From Lysobacter sp. Root76 (GTDB taxonomy: Bacteria; Pseudomonadota; Gammaproteobacteria; Xanthomonadales; Xanthomonadaceae), in contig NZ_LMIK01000001.1 of assembly GCF_001428685.1 (NCBI RefSeq), positions 1,048,464-1,112,463 on the forward strand: 64,000 nucleotides of DNA. Reading direction: 5' to 3'. How positions within the stretch are numbered: position 1 is the first letter of the stretch; the number at the start of each line of letters is the position of its first letter. The notes beneath the pieces were generated by a model that did no database searches, was not told the DNA's origin, and saw nothing but the letters and a program-made list of their open reading frames with translations. This document shows, piece after piece, positions 20,577-25,640 of this stretch. The position numbers were made by a program, and so were the translations under genes.

Positions 20577-20715
20577 CGCGCCGCGCCCCCTGTCCTTGTC
20601 GCCCCGCACGTTAACACCAAGCGCGCCGCCGCGAGGGCGCCGGGATTTTATTTCGAATCTGCTGTCGCTCACCACATATCGTGTTGACGGATCGAAGGAC
20701 CCCTAATATGTTGTG

Positions 20716-20980
20716 TCCGTCGGTGCCGATCGCGAGATCGGCTTAATAGGGAAGCCGGTGCGGACCCGTCCTTCTGGACGGCGACAAAGCCGGCGCTGCC
20801 CCGCAGCGGTATGGGAAACGAACGTGGTCATTGCACTGGGCGCCCGGCGCCTGGGAAGCGGCCACCAGTAGGAGGAGCCGAGGAGCGAGTAGAGAGGAGT
20901 GAGACGCGGGCCGAGGCCTGCCGACCACCGCTCTTAACTCGCCCCTCGCTCCAAGTCCCGAGCCCGAAGACCTGCCGACA
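20716..20980 (+). promoter_or_regulatory. Cobalamin (B12) riboswitch upstream of nrdA
   Basis: The core elements occur in order: GGTGCC (20722), TTAATAGGGAAGCCGGTG (20743-20760), the B12-box core GCCGGCGCTGCCCCGCAGCG (20789-20808), GCACTGGG (20833-20840), CTGGGAAGCGGCCACCAG (20851-20868), and the closing CCGAAGACCTGCCGAC (20964-20979). A long variable arm lies between the last two; GGAGCGAG (20882-20889) and CTCGCTCC (20945-20952) can pair. A look-alike GAGGCCTGCCGACC (20913-20926) inside the arm is a possible decoy for the 3' box. Binding of adenosylcobalamin normally lowers expression of the downstream gene, here class I ribonucleotide reductase, 260 bases away. Confidence 0.9.
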
Positions 20981-21142
20981 GCCGCGCGTCGCACACCGCG
21001 CGGTACCGGCTCAGGAGTCTTCGGGGGAAGGCGGCCGGTGTCGTTCCGCCGCCTCGGTCTTCCGTCGCGGCCGCAGCCCGTCTCGGACTGCGCGACACCC
21101 TGTCGTCATCCTCGAACACTTCGCGCCCGCGGGGGCGCACGC

Positions 21143-21238: not shown

Positions 21239-23719
21239 ATGACCGCCACCACCGAAGCGCCCGCCGCAGCGAGCACCTCCTCTTCCGCCCCCTCCCCCGC
21301 CGAAGCGCCCGCGCGCAATACCGACGCCGCCCCCGGTTTCGCCCTGACCCCGCCGGCCGCCAACCTCACCATGAGCGTGACCAAGCGCAGCGGACGCCGC
21401 GAGCCGGTCGACCTCAACAAGATCGTGCGCGCGGTCACCCGCTGCAGCGAGGACCTCTACGCGGTCGATCCGATGCGCGTGGCCACCCGCACCATCTCCG
21501 GCCTCTACGACGGCGCGACCACGCGCGAGCTCGACGAACTGTCGATCCGCACCGCCGCCCTGCTCACCGCCGAGGAGCCCGAGTACGGCCGCCTCGCCGC
21601 GCGCCTGCTCAGCAACGTGATCGAGAAGGAAGTCGCCGGCATCGAGATCCATGCGTTCTCGCAGTCGGTCGTGCGCGGCCACGAACTGGGCCTGATCAAC
21701 GACCGCCTGCTGAGCTTCGTGCAGGCCAACGCGCGCAAGCTCAACGACGCCATCGACCGCAGCCTGGACGCGCGCTTCGACTACTTCGGCCTGCGCACCC
21801 TGTACGACCGCTACCTGCTGCGCCACCCGACCGCGCGCACCGTGATCGAAACCCCGCAGCAGTTCTTCCTGCGCATCGCCTGCGCGCTCAGCGAAGACGT
21901 CGGCGACGCCCTGGCCCTGTACCGGCGCATGGCCCAGCTCGACTACATCCCGTCCTCGCCGACCCTGTTCAACGCCGGCACCACCCACGAGCAGCTATCG
22001 AGCTGCTTCCTGCTCGACTCGCCCGAGGATTCGCTGGAGTCGATCTACAAGCGCTACATGGACGTGGCCAAGCTCAGCAAGTTCAGCGGCGGCATCGGCC
22101 TGAGCTACACCCGCATCCGTTCGCGCGGCTCGCTGATCCGTTCCACCAACGGCCTGTCCAACGGCATCGTGCCGTGGCTGAAGACGCTCGACGCCTCGGT
22201 GGCCGCGGTCAACCAGGGCGGCAAGCGCAAGGGCGCGGCCTGCGTCTACCTGGAGCCGTGGCATGCCGATGTCGAAGAGTTCCTGGAACTGCGCGACAAC
22301 ACCGGCGACGAAGCGCGCCGCACCCACAACCTCAATCTCGCCAACTGGATTCCCGACGAATTCATGCGCCGGGTCGAGGCCGACGCCGACTGGTCGCTGT
22401 TCGATCCGGCCAAGGTGCCGCAGCTGACCGACCTGTGGGGCGAAGCTTTCGAGCAGGCCTATGCCGCGGCCGAAGCCGCCGGCCTGGCGGTCAAGAAGGT
22501 CAAGGCGCGCGACATCTACGGCCGCATGATGCGGACCCTGGCGCAGACCGGCAACGGCTGGATGAACTTCAAGGACAAGTCCAACCGCGCCTCCAACCAG
22601 ACCCTGCGCGACGGCAACGTCATCCACTTGTCCAACCTGTGCACCGAAATCCTCGAGGTCACCTCGCAGGACGAGACCGCGGTGTGCAACCTGGGCTCGA
22701 TCAACCTCTCCCACCACGTCGAGATGTACGAAGACGGCAAGGGCGCTTTCGATTTCGACAAGCTCGCCGAAACCGTGCGCCTGGCCGTGCGCCAGCTCGA
22801 CCGCGTGATCGACCTGAACTTCTACCCGATCGAGACCGCGCGCCGCGCCAATCTGAAGTGGCGCCCGGTCGGCCTGGGCTCGATGGGCCTGCAGGACGTG
22901 TTCTTCAAGCTGCGCCTGGCGTTCGACTCCGAGGCCGCGCGCAAGCTGTCGCAGGACATCGCCGAGGCGATCTACTTCCACGCCCTGTCGGCCTCGAACG
23001 AACTCGCGCTGGAACACGGCCGCCATCCCGGCTTCGACGACACCCGCGCCAGCATCGGCGAGCTGCAGTTCGAAGCCTGGGGCGTGACCCCGTCGCAGCC
23101 CGAGCGCTGGGACGCGCTGCGCCAGCGCATCGCCGAACACGGCCTGCGCAACTCGCTGCTGATCGCGATCGCGCCGACCGCGACCATCGCCTCGATCGCC
23201 GGCTGCTACGAATGCATCGAGCCGCAGGTGTCCAACCTGTTCAAGCGCGAAACGCTGTCCGGCGACTTCCTGGTGGTCAACAAATACCTGGTCGAGGAGC
23301 TCAAGAAGCTCGGCCTGTGGACGGCGGAGATGCGCGACCGAATCAAGATGGCCGAAGGCTCGATCCAGTCCGTGCACGAAGTGCCCGAGTCGCTGCGCCA
23401 GGTCTACCGCACCGCCTGGGAACTGCCGATGCGCTCGCTGATCGACATGGCCGCCGAGCGCGGCGCCTACATCGACCAGAGCCAGTCGCTGAACCTGTTC
23501 ATCGAAAGCCCGAACATCGGCCAGCTCAGCTCGATGTACATGTACGCCTGGAAGAAGGGCCTGAAGACCACCTACTACCTGCGTTCGCGCCCGGCCACCA
23601 AGATCGCCAAGAGCACGGTCAGCGCTCCGGTGGCGGCAACGCCGAAGCCGGAATACACCGCGGACGAAGCGATCGCCTGCTCGCTGGAAAACCCCGAGTC
23701 CTGCGAAGCCTGTCAGTAG
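21239..23719 (+). CDS. nrdA: Class I ribonucleoside-diphosphate reductase, large (alpha) subunit
   Basis: 826 residues from the ATG at 21239. It reduces ribonucleoside diphosphates to deoxyribonucleotides together with NrdB. After an Ala/Pro/Ser-rich lead of ~40 residues comes the ATP-cone (VTKRSGRREPVDLNKIVRAV) that senses ATP/dATP. The catalytic barrel follows: GTTHEQLSSCFLLDSPEDS (redox Cys), NLCTEI (thiyl-radical Cys), AVCNLGSINLS (partner Cys), APTATIASIAGCYECIEPQ, and YIDQSQSLNLF. The C-terminal CEAC pair shuttles reducing equivalents. The nearest plausible homologues are the Xanthomonadaceae NrdA. A cobalamin riboswitch precedes it. Its operon partner nrdB lies beyond an antisense insert. 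Confidence 0.95.
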   Translation: MTATTEAPAAASTSSSAPSPAEAPARNTDAAPGFALTPPAANLTMSVTKRSGRREPVDLNKIVRAVTRCSEDLYAVDPMRVATRTISGLYDGATTRELDELSIRTAALLTAEEPEYGRLAARLLSNVIEKEVAGIEIHAFSQSVVRGHELGLINDRLLSFVQANARKLNDAIDRSLDARFDYFGLRTLYDRYLLRHPTARTVIETPQQFFLRIACALSEDVGDALALYRRMAQLDYIPSSPTLFNAGTTHEQLSSCFLLDSPEDSLESIYKRYMDVAKLSKFSGGIGLSYTRIRSRGSLIRSTNGLSNGIVPWLKTLDASVAAVNQGGKRKGAACVYLEPWHADVEEFLELRDNTGDEARRTHNLNLANWIPDEFMRRVEADADWSLFDPAKVPQLTDLWGEAFEQAYAAAEAAGLAVKKVKARDIYGRMMRTLAQTGNGWMNFKDKSNRASNQTLRDGNVIHLSNLCTEILEVTSQDETAVCNLGSINLSHHVEMYEDGKGAFDFDKLAETVRLAVRQLDRVIDLNFYPIETARRANLKWRPVGLGSMGLQDVFFKLRLAFDSEAARKLSQDIAEAIYFHALSASNELALEHGRHPGFDDTRASIGELQFEAWGVTPSQPERWDALRQRIAEHGLRNSLLIAIAPTATIASIAGCYECIEPQVSNLFKRETLSGDFLVVNKYLVEELKKLGLWTAEMRDRIKMAEGSIQSVHEVPESLRQVYRTAWELPMRSLIDMAAERGAYIDQSQSLNLFIESPNIGQLSSMYMYAWKKGLKTTYYLRSRPATKIAKSTVSAPVAATPKPEYTADEAIACSLENPESCEACQ

Positions 23720-23725
23720 TTGCGG

Positions 23726-24259
23726 GGGAACTAGAAGGGAGAGGAACTAGCAACGAGTGCCTGAGCCTGGAGGGCCGCCGATGCTTGGCGGACCTCTCAC
23801 TGTTCTGCGCAACGAGGTAAGCATTCGGCCGACCTCGTCGACCAGGGCAAGGGCCTCCGCCAGTTTCTGGCCGTCGAGCCAACCAAGTCGCACGCAAAGC
23901 AGCATTTGCGTATGCACTTCGGCAAGCGATCCATGCGCGACCGCCAGGAACTGAGCCTTTTCCTTGCGGGACTCTCGCGTCCACCCTTCTGCGATGTTGC
24001 TGGGAACGGAGATTGCGGCCCTCGTCATCTGCAGCCTCACGCCGTATCGCTCCTCCACCGGCAATCTCGCCGCATTCATACAAACCAGCTCCGCCAGCCG
24101 CATGGACTTGATCCAAACCAATGCTCCCCGGTAGTGCATGCCGTCGCTTCGTGTTCGCCTCAAGCTTGACCGCACCACTGCCTTTCATATGTCGGAAAAC
24201 CGCCCATGTCCATGTCAGCCAAAGCCCTTCCCGTTACTGATTCCTCCCTACTAGTTCCC
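23726..24259. mobile_element. Putative cassette: four-helix-bundle gene between ~28-base inverted repeats
   Basis: The left repeat 23726-23754 begins GGGAACTAGAAGGGAG and ends GGAACTAGCAAC. The right repeat 24233-24259, read on the other strand, begins GGGAACTAGTAGGGAG and ends CAGTAAC. They match at about 24 of 29 aligned positions. Between them lies only the antisense four-helix-bundle gene. The left repeat contains that gene's stop codon. The right repeat lies within nrdB codons ~10-18. There is no transposase, so any movement would need a trans-acting enzyme. The boundaries are my reading of the repeats. Confidence 0.55.
23747..24139 (-). CDS. Four-helix bundle protein (23S rRNA intervening-sequence protein family)
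   Basis: 130 residues from the ATG at 24139. Earlier in-frame starts add an Arg-rich lead absent from the family. The hallmark is MTRAAISVPSNIAEGWTRES followed by KEKAQFLAVAHGSLAEVHTQ. This is the conserved core of the small S23/IVP-type helical bundle proteins, related in fold to Avd of diversity-generating retroelements. They are usually basic and thought to bind nucleic acid; the function is unproven. The gene is antisense between nrdA and nrdB, where most relatives have no gene. Its stop codon lies in an inverted repeat that also recurs beyond its start. Confidence 0.87.
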   Translation of the reverse strand: MHYRGALVWIKSMRLAELVCMNAARLPVEERYGVRLQMTRAAISVPSNIAEGWTRESRKEKAQFLAVAHGSLAEVHTQMLLCVRLGWLDGQKLAEALALVDEVGRMLTSLRRTVRGPPSIGGPPGSGTRC

Positions 24260-25258
24260 AAGCTCCTGGACCCCGGTTTCGATCTCACCCTGCGGCCGAT
24301 GCGCTATCCGCATTTCTACGAGATGTACCGCGACGCGATCCGCAACACCTGGACCGTCGAAGAGGTCGATTTCTCGCAGGACGTCAACGACCTCAAGCAC
24401 AAGTTCGGCCCGGCCGAGCGCCATCTGGTCGAGCGCCTGGTCGCGTTCTTCGCCACCGGCGACAGCATCGTCGCCAACAACCTGGTGCTGAACCTCTACC
24501 AGCACATCAACGCGCCGGAAGCGCGCATGTACCTGTCGCGGCAGCTGTACGAAGAAGCGCTGCACGTGCAGTTCTACCTGACCCTGCTCGACACCTACCT
24601 GCCCGATCCGAACGAGCGCGCCAAGGCCTTCGACGCGGTCGAGAACATCCCTTCGATCCGGGCCAAGGCCGAGTTCTGTTTCCGCTGGATCGATTCGGTG
24701 CAGGACCTCAAGCGCATCGAGACCCGCGAGCAGCGCCGCCAGTTCCTGCTCAACCTGATCTGCTTCGCCGGCTGCATCGAAGGCCTGTTCTTCTTCGCCG
24801 CCTTCGCCTATGTCTACTATCTGCGTTCGCGCGGCCTGCTCAACGGCCTGGCCTCGGGCACCAACTGGGTGTTCCGCGACGAAAGCTGCCACATGGCCTT
24901 CGCCTTCGAAGTCATCCGCACCGCGCGCGAGGAGGAGCCCGACCTGTTCGACGCCGATCTGCGCGCGCAGGTGGTGAAGATGTTCGAGGATGCGGTGGAT
25001 TGCGAGCTGCAGTTCGCCCAGGACGTGCTGTCCGGCGGCGTGGTCGGCCTGTCGCTGAAGGACATGCGCCAGTACCTGGAGTACTGCGCCGACCAGCGCA
25101 TGGCGCAGCTCGGCATGCCCAAGCATTTCGGCTCGACCAACCCCTTCGGCTTCATGGACCTGCAGGACGTGCAGGAAGTGACCAACTTCTTCGAACGCCG
25201 GGTCTCGGCCTACCAGGTCGGCGTGCAGGGCGAAGTGGCGTTCGACGAGGCGTTCTGA
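24206..25258 (+). CDS. nrdB: Class I ribonucleoside-diphosphate reductase, small (beta) subunit
   Basis: 350 residues. It houses the di-iron/tyrosyl-radical cofactor for NrdA. Metal ligands D86 (ATGDSIVANN), E117 and H120 (EALHVQFY) are visible. Y124, seven residues after E117, is in the place of the radical tyrosine. The second ligand set follows in FAGCIEGLFFFAAF and RDESCHMAF. The C-terminal tail that docks on NrdA ends in EVAFDEAF. The N-terminus is odd: MSMSAKALPVTDSSLLVPKL runs ahead of the usual LLDPGF start. Residues ~10-18 are encoded by the right inverted repeat of the inserted cassette, so the extension is probably an insertion scar. Only a weak GGAA ribosome-binding site precedes it. 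Confidence 0.94.
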   Translation: MSMSAKALPVTDSSLLVPKLLDPGFDLTLRPMRYPHFYEMYRDAIRNTWTVEEVDFSQDVNDLKHKFGPAERHLVERLVAFFATGDSIVANNLVLNLYQHINAPEARMYLSRQLYEEALHVQFYLTLLDTYLPDPNERAKAFDAVENIPSIRAKAEFCFRWIDSVQDLKRIETREQRRQFLLNLICFAGCIEGLFFFAAFAYVYYLRSRGLLNGLASGTNWVFRDESCHMAFAFEVIRTAREEEPDLFDADLRAQVVKMFEDAVDCELQFAQDVLSGGVVGLSLKDMRQYLEYCADQRMAQLGMPKHFGSTNPFGFMDLQDVQEVTNFFERRVSAYQVGVQGEVAFDEAF

Positions 25259-25294: not shown

Positions 25295-25640
25295 GAAGAT
25301 CAAAAGCCCCTCACCCTAGCCCTCTCCCGCAAGCGGGAGAGGGAACAGTTCGCCGCGGCGCCGCTCTCATCGCTGAATAAAGCCCCTCTCCCGCTTGCGG
25401 GAGAGGGGTTGGGGTGAGGGGATGAGCGCCAAAGGCGCGAATGCCTTTGCTCTCGTTCCCCCTATTGAAGATCAAAAGCCCCCTCACCCTAGCCCTCTCC
25501 CGCAAGCGGGAGAGGGAACGGTTCGCCGCGGCGCCACTCTCATCGCTAAAGCCCCTCTCCCGCCTGCGGCGCCCGAAGGGTGTGCAAGGCTGAGAGGGGT
25601 TGGGGTGAGGGCCGCTGCGACGCCACTCTCGTCGCTTATC
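25295..25640. repeat. Two direct copies of a hairpin-rich intergenic block
   Basis: A block starting GAAGATCAAAAGCCC occurs at 25295 and again at 25467. Each copy carries CCCTCTCCCGC facing GCGGGAGAGGG (self-complementary, strong hairpin), then TTCGCCGCGGCGCC, then AAAGCCCCTCTCCCGC with GGGGTTGGGGTGAGGG. The second copy has an extra ~20 bases (near 25570-25592) inside its last hairpin. A third, short piece (GACGCCACTCTCGTCGCT) is at 25619. Nothing else is visible in the gap 25259-25657. The hairpins could end or insulate nrdB transcription. Confidence 0.75.

Follow-up and report, generated by a model that had tools for sequence, protein, structure and literature searches.

The locus considered here raises the question of why a small helix-bundle gene should lie alone and antisense between the two genes of one enzyme, ribonucleotide reductase, and what the inverted repeats that bracket it are. 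The answer that we favor, at a probability of roughly 0.55, is that gene and repeats form a two-part element, in which an IVP gene resides in the loop of a hairpin, keeps to its site, and has as partners further hairpins of its own flavour at other places in the genome. The relevant features of the window (the whole stretch of 64,000 nucleotides from Lysobacter sp. Root76 that was analyzed) are as follows.

21239..23719, + strand: nrdA, ribonucleotide reductase large chain (PF02867, E 2e-199)
23726..23754, + strand: left arm, four degenerate heptamers, GGAACTA GAAGGGA [GA] GGAACTA GCAACGA, read by comparison with relatives
23747..24139, - strand: IVP/S23 four-helix-bundle gene (PF05635 match at 23813-24118)
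24206..25258, + strand: nrdB, ribonucleotide reductase small chain (PF00268, E 3e-83)
24206..24260, + strand: predicted nrdB start and N-terminal codons crossing the right arm (MSMSAKALPVTDSSLLVP-KLLDPGF)
24233..24259, + strand: right arm, complement of the left arm, translated within NrdB from its predicted start

The antisense gene belongs to the family PF05635 (23S_rRNA_IVP; E 7e-30, 103.8 bits, cut-off 33.8) and also matches TIGR02436 "four helix bundle protein" (105.7 bits, cut-off 24) and the structure PDB 2gsc (E 4e-19), which is probably that of X. campestris S23p; all of its profile matches are to helix-bundle families. These matches, together with the Pfam matches of nrdA and nrdB, confirm the gene order proposed in an earlier reading made from the sequence alone (hereafter the sequence-only reading), viz. 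an IVP/S23 helix-bundle gene antisense between nrdA and nrdB. The open reading frame extends from a GTG at 24178, and the likely start is the ATG at 24139 (MHYRG..); the products of the nrdAB loci L016 and L017 also open with MHY. In the annotated records examined, members of this family go under the names "four helix bundle protein" and "S23 ribosomal protein".

The nrdA stop codon, which ends at 23719, is followed by GGGAACTAGAAGGGAGAGGAACTAGCAAC, the left arm beginning 6 nt past the stop, and then by the antisense PF05635 gene and nrdB. The outer parts of the arms (23726-23741 and 24244-24259) are complementary at 15/16 positions, and with a 2-nt gap allowed the pairing reaches about 23749 and 24236. 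The sequence-only reading had described imperfect inverted repeats of about 28 bases bracketing the gene; such repeats are present, but the right arm lies within the nrdB frame, and the repeat judged alone is weak and not striking, as 2-6% of random placements equal it (its survey score, 13.5, is attained by 54/965 of those drawn from the window, and its gapped score by 44/1916 of the same geometry). The case for the reality of this repeat therefore comes from comparison with other loci and not from the single repeat. In the predicted fold of the nrd-strand RNA, the arms pair to close the structure, in the MFE and the centroid predictions alike (z -3.2), so that an S23 gene lies in the loop of a predicted terminal stem, as in the intervening sequences (IVS) of rRNA, here between nrdA and nrdB and not inside a 23S rRNA gene. 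A search of Rfam at gathering scores returned no match to the hairpins in eight loci.

The first start codon of nrdB (24206) is located in the loop, and the right arm is therefore part of the reading frame and is translated if this start, which like all start codons given here is a prediction, is the one in use. In a relative without the gene (G018), the N-terminus of NrdB reads MSLATPR-LLDPGF. In 15/16 of the family's nrdAB loci, the open frame of nrdB has its first ATG inside the loop, and the right arm forms an N-terminal extension before LL(D/S)PGF; the sixteenth locus (L138) was left unassigned by the reading-frame search, and one locus (L116) has an additional ATG directly after the arm. 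A comparable arrangement is seen at another junction, where the hairpin carries no IVP gene: a GTG or TTG two codons ahead of the arm opens the downstream frame in 11/12 hairpin-bearing genomes, with one locus (L271) giving no frame. With the predicted start, the N-terminus of an essential enzyme subunit, NrdB, would derive from one arm of the element.

Within the genus, the element is present in a patchy manner and its flanks are mostly species-typical. The nrdB gene was found in 20/20 genomes, and in four of these (the window's own, G000, and G001, G002, and G006) the spacer between nrdA and nrdB holds the antisense IVP gene, whereas inspection of the remaining 16/20 spacers revealed no IVP gene and, in most of them, REP-like hairpin sequence. 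The earlier suggestion that the repeats and the gene form a single unit lacking a transposase is borne out, and this unit occurs in some relatives but not in others. In the four occupied genomes the arm sequences vary while their self-complementarity is kept. On the genus tree (2574 columns) the nrdAB trait needs 3 changes, and a single clade of carriers is rejected (AU p 1.3e-5). The nrdA and nrdB flanking DNA of G000 is nearer to that of an empty sister species than to that of the other occupied genomes in 11/12 distance windows, the exception being nrdB 200-400, and import of the element with long flanks was rejected on these mostly species-typical distances. A REP-like spacer is common to empty genomes from either side of the tree, and we therefore take emptiness to be ancestral and the element to have been acquired, probably several times over, with sharp edges; the alternative would be precise loss. 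The sequence-only reading had also proposed looking in relatives for target duplications; none was recognised on inspection of the 20 nrdA-nrdB spacers, and in occupied genomes the spacer is replaced and not interrupted. The element would have taken the place of the spacer with one arm just past the nrdA stop and the other just past the predicted nrdB start. REP-like repeats (CCCTCTCCCGCAAGCGGGAGAGGG) that resemble the filler of most relatives' empty nrdA-nrdB spacers also occur in the window downstream of nrdB (25300-25640).

The same architecture recurs throughout the family, and the gene is not the lone oddity that it had first appeared to be, as 16 nrdAB loci of the family carry an antisense IVP. 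PF05635 genes are present in 14/20 genus genomes and 64/149 family genomes. From the latter, 98 loci were taken, of which 95 were found by profile (L147, L149, and L150 were missed and dropped). Inverted repeats within 250 bp on each side of the gene were compared with those of 100 shuffled sequences, and 88/95 loci had arms that 0/100 shuffles equalled, while 7/95 failed this test. Scores of at least 16 were obtained for 80/95 loci, and in 78 of those 80 the arms have a period of 7, with a median arm of 31 nt, or about four heptamers. The arm flavours include GGGATTC, GGGAATS, GTGATTC, GGGACTC, and GGGACCG, and a typical nrdAB arm reads GGAACGA GTGGTGA GGAACGA GGAACGA.

Four operon junctions (viz. 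accBC with 45 loci, nrdAB with 16, carAB with 14, and glyA-nrdR with 5) hold 80/95 family loci, the other 15 having different neighbors. The nrdAB labels rest on nrdB, which was matched in 16/16 loci; two loci (L002 and L083) were reassigned after a weak accC match had mislabelled them, and site names were checked with NCBIfam at one locus each (accB, accC, carA, carB, glyA, nrdR, and minE) and with Pfam for nrdA and nrdB of the window. The gene is in sense orientation at accBC, carAB, and glyA-nrdR and antisense at nrdAB (16/16). In a tree of 92 IVP domains, the carAB and the glyA-nrdR proteins each form one group, accBC requires 2 changes and nrdAB 5, the nrdAB proteins sitting in one region of the tree that they share with 8 rows from the "other" class; all site labels together require 9 changes vs. 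43 when shuffled, and the protein tree thus tracks the junctions. Distances between IVPs correlate weakly with those between their neighboring genes (accBC rho 0.31, p 0.001; carAB 0.12, p 0.19; nrdAB 0.16, p 0.12), and strict vertical inheritance was rejected on this result and on the 3 changes that nrdAB presence needs in the genus. Most IVP genes are open frames, with a few in pieces (G145 and G041), and the residues most conserved across 169 IVPs suggest a functional surface. One small genome (G052) has five IVP genes (L120, L127, L139, L140, and L145) whose arms are apparently unlike each other.

The two arms of an element evolve in concert. The match of an arm to its own partner exceeds that obtained when arms are swapped among orthologues at accBC (22.3 vs. 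16.3, n = 45), carAB (26.7 vs. 19.2, n = 14), and nrdAB (19.7 vs. 12.6, n = 16), in each case with p 5e-5, which is the limit of 20000 permutations and a rough value because the rows are related. The own partner ranks as the best of its row in 7/45, 4/14, and 8/16 cases, respectively. Independent divergence of two old arms predicts about equal scores, and the results therefore point to concerted evolution or to selection for pairing.

Arrays of matching flavour are dispersed through the genomes that carry the gene. In the genus, the pattern GGGAWTSGGGAWTSG has 159-812 hits in the 11 genomes with an accBC IVP and 2-30 hits in 8/9 of the others (0-2 per strand for the reversed pattern). The ninth (G016) has 503 array hits and no PF05635 match, and a recent loss of its IVP is possible. 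Across the 149 family genomes, the presence of an accBC IVP predicts the abundance of GGG/GTG arrays with an AUC of 0.98 (at least 15 hits in 37/37 genomes with it and 20/112 without), a carAB IVP that of GGGACYS arrays with an AUC of 0.97 (10/12 with, 7/137 without), and an nrdAB IVP that of its own pattern with an AUC of 0.88 (6/13 with, 6/136 without). The control for the nrdAB pattern is noisy in a number of genomes, G080 having 95 control hits. Off-pairings of site and flavour give AUCs of 0.42-0.71, the highest being carAB IVP with GGG/GTG arrays (p 0.006). The array patterns were derived from the arms, so that each element adds its own arms to these counts, which accounts for a few hits but not for hundreds. 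Genera in which both states occur show the same direction in 14/14 cases for accBC, 6/6 for carAB, and 5/8 for nrdAB. In the 37 accBC genomes, the proportion of arm units that are of GTG type tracks the proportion of arrays of that type in the genome (rho 0.58, p 2e-4): all ten genomes with GTG-type arms have 23-94% GTG arrays, although 6/27 genomes with GGG-type arms nevertheless have 25-47%. Overall, the association of IVP genes with heptamer hairpins is well supported.

The genome of the window itself contains GGAAYTAG-N(3-12)-GGAAYTAG eight times (4 + 4; reversed control 0), at five sites that include the left arm. The repeats therefore recur, as the sequence-only reading had required of itself. 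It had also asked whether other copies flank four-helix-bundle genes; on inspection, each of the four further sites is a hairpin that lacks an IVP gene, one of them lying after minE with 34-nt arms that are 85% complementary. The pattern gave 1 or 2 hits in 3 of the other 19 genus genomes and one control hit in 5. A strict pattern of the exact arms recovered the two arms and one site with 2 mismatches (3 hits vs. 2 in the control), and the copies were found with the heptamer-aware pattern. Cognate dispersed hairpins that lack the gene, which are a hallmark of REPIN-RAYT systems, are thus found here. Neighboring arrays less than 600 bp apart in 40 loci scanned face inwards in 17/18 pairs and outwards in 0. 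At the shared junction without an IVP gene mentioned above, a heptamer hairpin is present in 10/11 genomes with an accBC IVP and in G016, G015 has one of a different flavour, and the hairpin is absent or degenerate in G012, which has an accBC IVP, and in the other seven genus genomes. By eye, the loops of gene-less hairpins have little in common with the IVP gene.

The design occurs in many phyla and on plasmids. Eight plasmid IVPs chosen from 19 plasmid hits (7 cyanobacterial and 1 from Gemmatirosa) have arms in 8/8 cases (0/200 shuffles), those of the Gemmatirosa plasmid having a period of 8. On the Nostoc edaphicum plasmid pNe_5 (L170, 1477-1845), an IVP gene with GGGAGTA arrays lies antisense between the genes for the ribonucleotide reductase alpha and beta chains, as in the window. 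On two other cyanobacterial plasmids (L174 and L176), IVP genes with arms are located between cas6 and cas4 in CRISPR operons. Heptamer repeats of cyanobacteria go by the name STRR. Among the best 80 of at least 592 chromosomal relatives from many phyla, 60/80 have arms by the shuffle test, a period of 7 being seen in 53 of these, and 20/80 fail; scores of at least 16 were reached by 52 of these 80 loci vs. 4/400 random segments from the same loci. Gene direction could be judged for 63 of the best 80 loci (17 were left out), of which 50 lie between co-directional genes, 8 between convergent and 5 between divergent genes. The co-directional loci comprise 49 sense genes and 1 antisense gene, and the antisense nrdAB arrangement is therefore unusual.

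A number of known systems resemble parts of this picture. The 23S rRNA IVS of Coxiella burnetii, as described in the available part of one paper, has an S23p gene enclosed by a terminal stem of 28 bp, with two or three heptamers in tandem and one further, degenerate copy next to the gene, and is cut by RNase III (PMC4990558). Much the same architecture is found in the window, whose element is therefore IVS-like but outside rRNA; it differs from the rRNA form, which sits in 23S rRNA and is excised by RNase III, in occupying an operon junction in mRNA, in having one arm translated, and in being accompanied by flavour-matched arrays elsewhere in the genome. Dispersed heptamers, often in four units, resemble the IVP arrays in Xanthomonas and Nostoc (GGGAATC and GGGGA(C/T)T; PMC4692102), with 70 and 75 convergent pairs, mostly near gene ends, in two Xanthomonas genomes (PMC4692102), and in Geobacter metallireducens (4 x GGGACCG; PMC2700814), and quadruplex or regulatory roles are discussed for them in the portions of these papers that were available; 7-mer direct repeats are also on record in an excerpt for the Beggiatoaceae (PMC4679880). 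The words "S23" and "helix bundle" are absent from the main text of the two former papers as far as it was available (PMC4692102; PMC2700814) and likewise from the excerpt on the Beggiatoaceae (PMC4679880), and a literature search that lay mostly outside subscription journals and bioRxiv yielded no recognisable paper tying S23/IVP genes to dispersed heptamer hairpins. The closest parallel in behaviour is REPIN-RAYT, which in the accessible part of its description likewise combines a single-copy gene with cognate inverted-repeat hairpins in several flavours and compensatory hairpin changes (PMC3116915); RAYT is, however, a tyrosine transposase, whereas IVP is a small helix bundle, the ends of its element are heptamer arrays, and the window gene is not a REP-associated tyrosine transposase. 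The Avd protein of DGRs (NF033474) is a helix-bundle relative of the window IVP, which scores 32 bits against it and falls below the family cut-off of 80 bits.

RAYTs are thought to promote the copying or upkeep of REPINs, and Avd acts together with its RT; we know of no catalytic domain or catalytic role for IVP. In the mechanism that we propose, the S23/IVP gene resides in the loop of a roughly 28-bp stem, each arm of which consists of about four tandem 7-base repeats, and an oligomer of the protein may recognise the heptamer hairpin cognate to it, in the form of either RNA or single-stranded DNA. The X. campestris homologue, reported as a pentameric ring, is described as a homopentamer in the available part of the Coxiella paper (PMC4990558). 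We infer that IVP copies or maintains the hairpins: it would drive their copying into, or their upkeep and homogenisation at, stop/start junctions, possibly through an enzyme that it borrows, for example a reverse transcriptase, in the manner of RAYT/REPIN and Avd/RT, while the element itself would rarely move and would home to the same junctions. The occurrence of the same gene-plus-repeat design with matching hairpins in many bacteria suggests an undescribed two-part genetic element. Against this reading, no movement was seen, nrdAB flavour follows the IVP in just 5/8 genera, and 20/112 genomes without an accBC IVP hold at least 15 arrays. A broader version, to which we would give somewhat less than even odds, is that PF05635 proteins from Xanthomonadaceae to cyanobacteria are trans-acting partners of heptamer hairpins in a transposase-free system that copies or homogenises itself and homes to operon stop/start junctions and to loops of structured RNA, the rRNA IVS being a special case. 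This would join three topics that are treated apart in the literature as far as it was available (viz. a protein family without a known function, dispersed heptamer repeats, and rRNA intervening sequences), and bacteria would then own a repeat-propagating system without a transposase of its own.

The main rival is that IVP is an RNA-binding regulator to which the hairpins at operon junctions offer binding sites; the hairpin around its own gene would give autoregulation, the arrays would decay by mutation after IVP loss, and nothing would be mobilised. A regulator with binding sites fits most of the data: hairpins adjoin stop and start codons where they were read, the arms co-evolve as a pairing constraint would require, and the arrays look degenerate at the shared junction in G005 and G017, which lack IVP. 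We nevertheless consider it unlikely, if worth serious attention, as the flavour of hundreds of arrays changes between lineages, which a conserved regulator would not need, and the genes beside IVP-less arrays look diverse (ten regions of G001 and a few others). It is clearly less probable that an rRNA-type intervening sequence landed in an mRNA spacer, with a stem that RNase III would cut and an IVP gene carried along as a mere passenger. The Coxiella IVS shares the S23p gene, 28-bp stem, heptamers, and RNase III cut, and its S23p is said to be decaying in the part of the source available (PMC4990558), but most IVP genes here are open, with strongly conserved residues and a tree that tracks sites; a cut in the right arm would part nrdB from its predicted start codon in 15/16 nrdAB loci, and the flavour-matched arrays elsewhere would be left unexplained. 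Ordinary heptamer satellites that expand by slippage at spacers, into which IVP genes chance to insert, would account for the length and perfection of some arrays (L160 has 29 overlapping matches), and slippage therefore probably acts; as a full account, however, this is quite improbable in view of the same flavour and inverted orientation of both arms, the inward-facing array pairs, the prediction of flavour by IVP site, and the arms at 60 of the best 80 loci from many phyla. Least probable of all is the gene-carrying MITE mobilised in trans by a DNA transposase that the sequence-only reading had put forward, which would fit the internal gene, the inverted ends that recur in the genome, and the occupied and empty sites in relatives, but which is rejected as the main reading in view of tandem 7-mer ends whose flavour changes between orthologues, a spacer that is replaced with no target duplication seen, an IVP tree that follows the sites, and a design that spans many phyla.

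A gene-less hairpin of related flavour is also present upstream of nrdA in the window, within a cobalamin riboswitch.

20704..20993, + strand: cobalamin riboswitch RF00174 upstream of nrdA
20878..20955, + strand: gene-less hairpin of related flavour (GGAGCGAGTAGAGAGGAGTGAG..), an insert in the riboswitch

The 78-nt insert (20878-20955) falls between positions 151 and 152 of the RF00174 model and could be either an ordinary variable stem of the aptamer or an IVS-like insertion in a structured RNA. A cobalamin riboswitch is present in 12/12 relatives examined, and in ten printed alignments the insert is long in G018, G012, G011, G010, G016, G008, and G017 and 13 nt in G013, G001, and G002.
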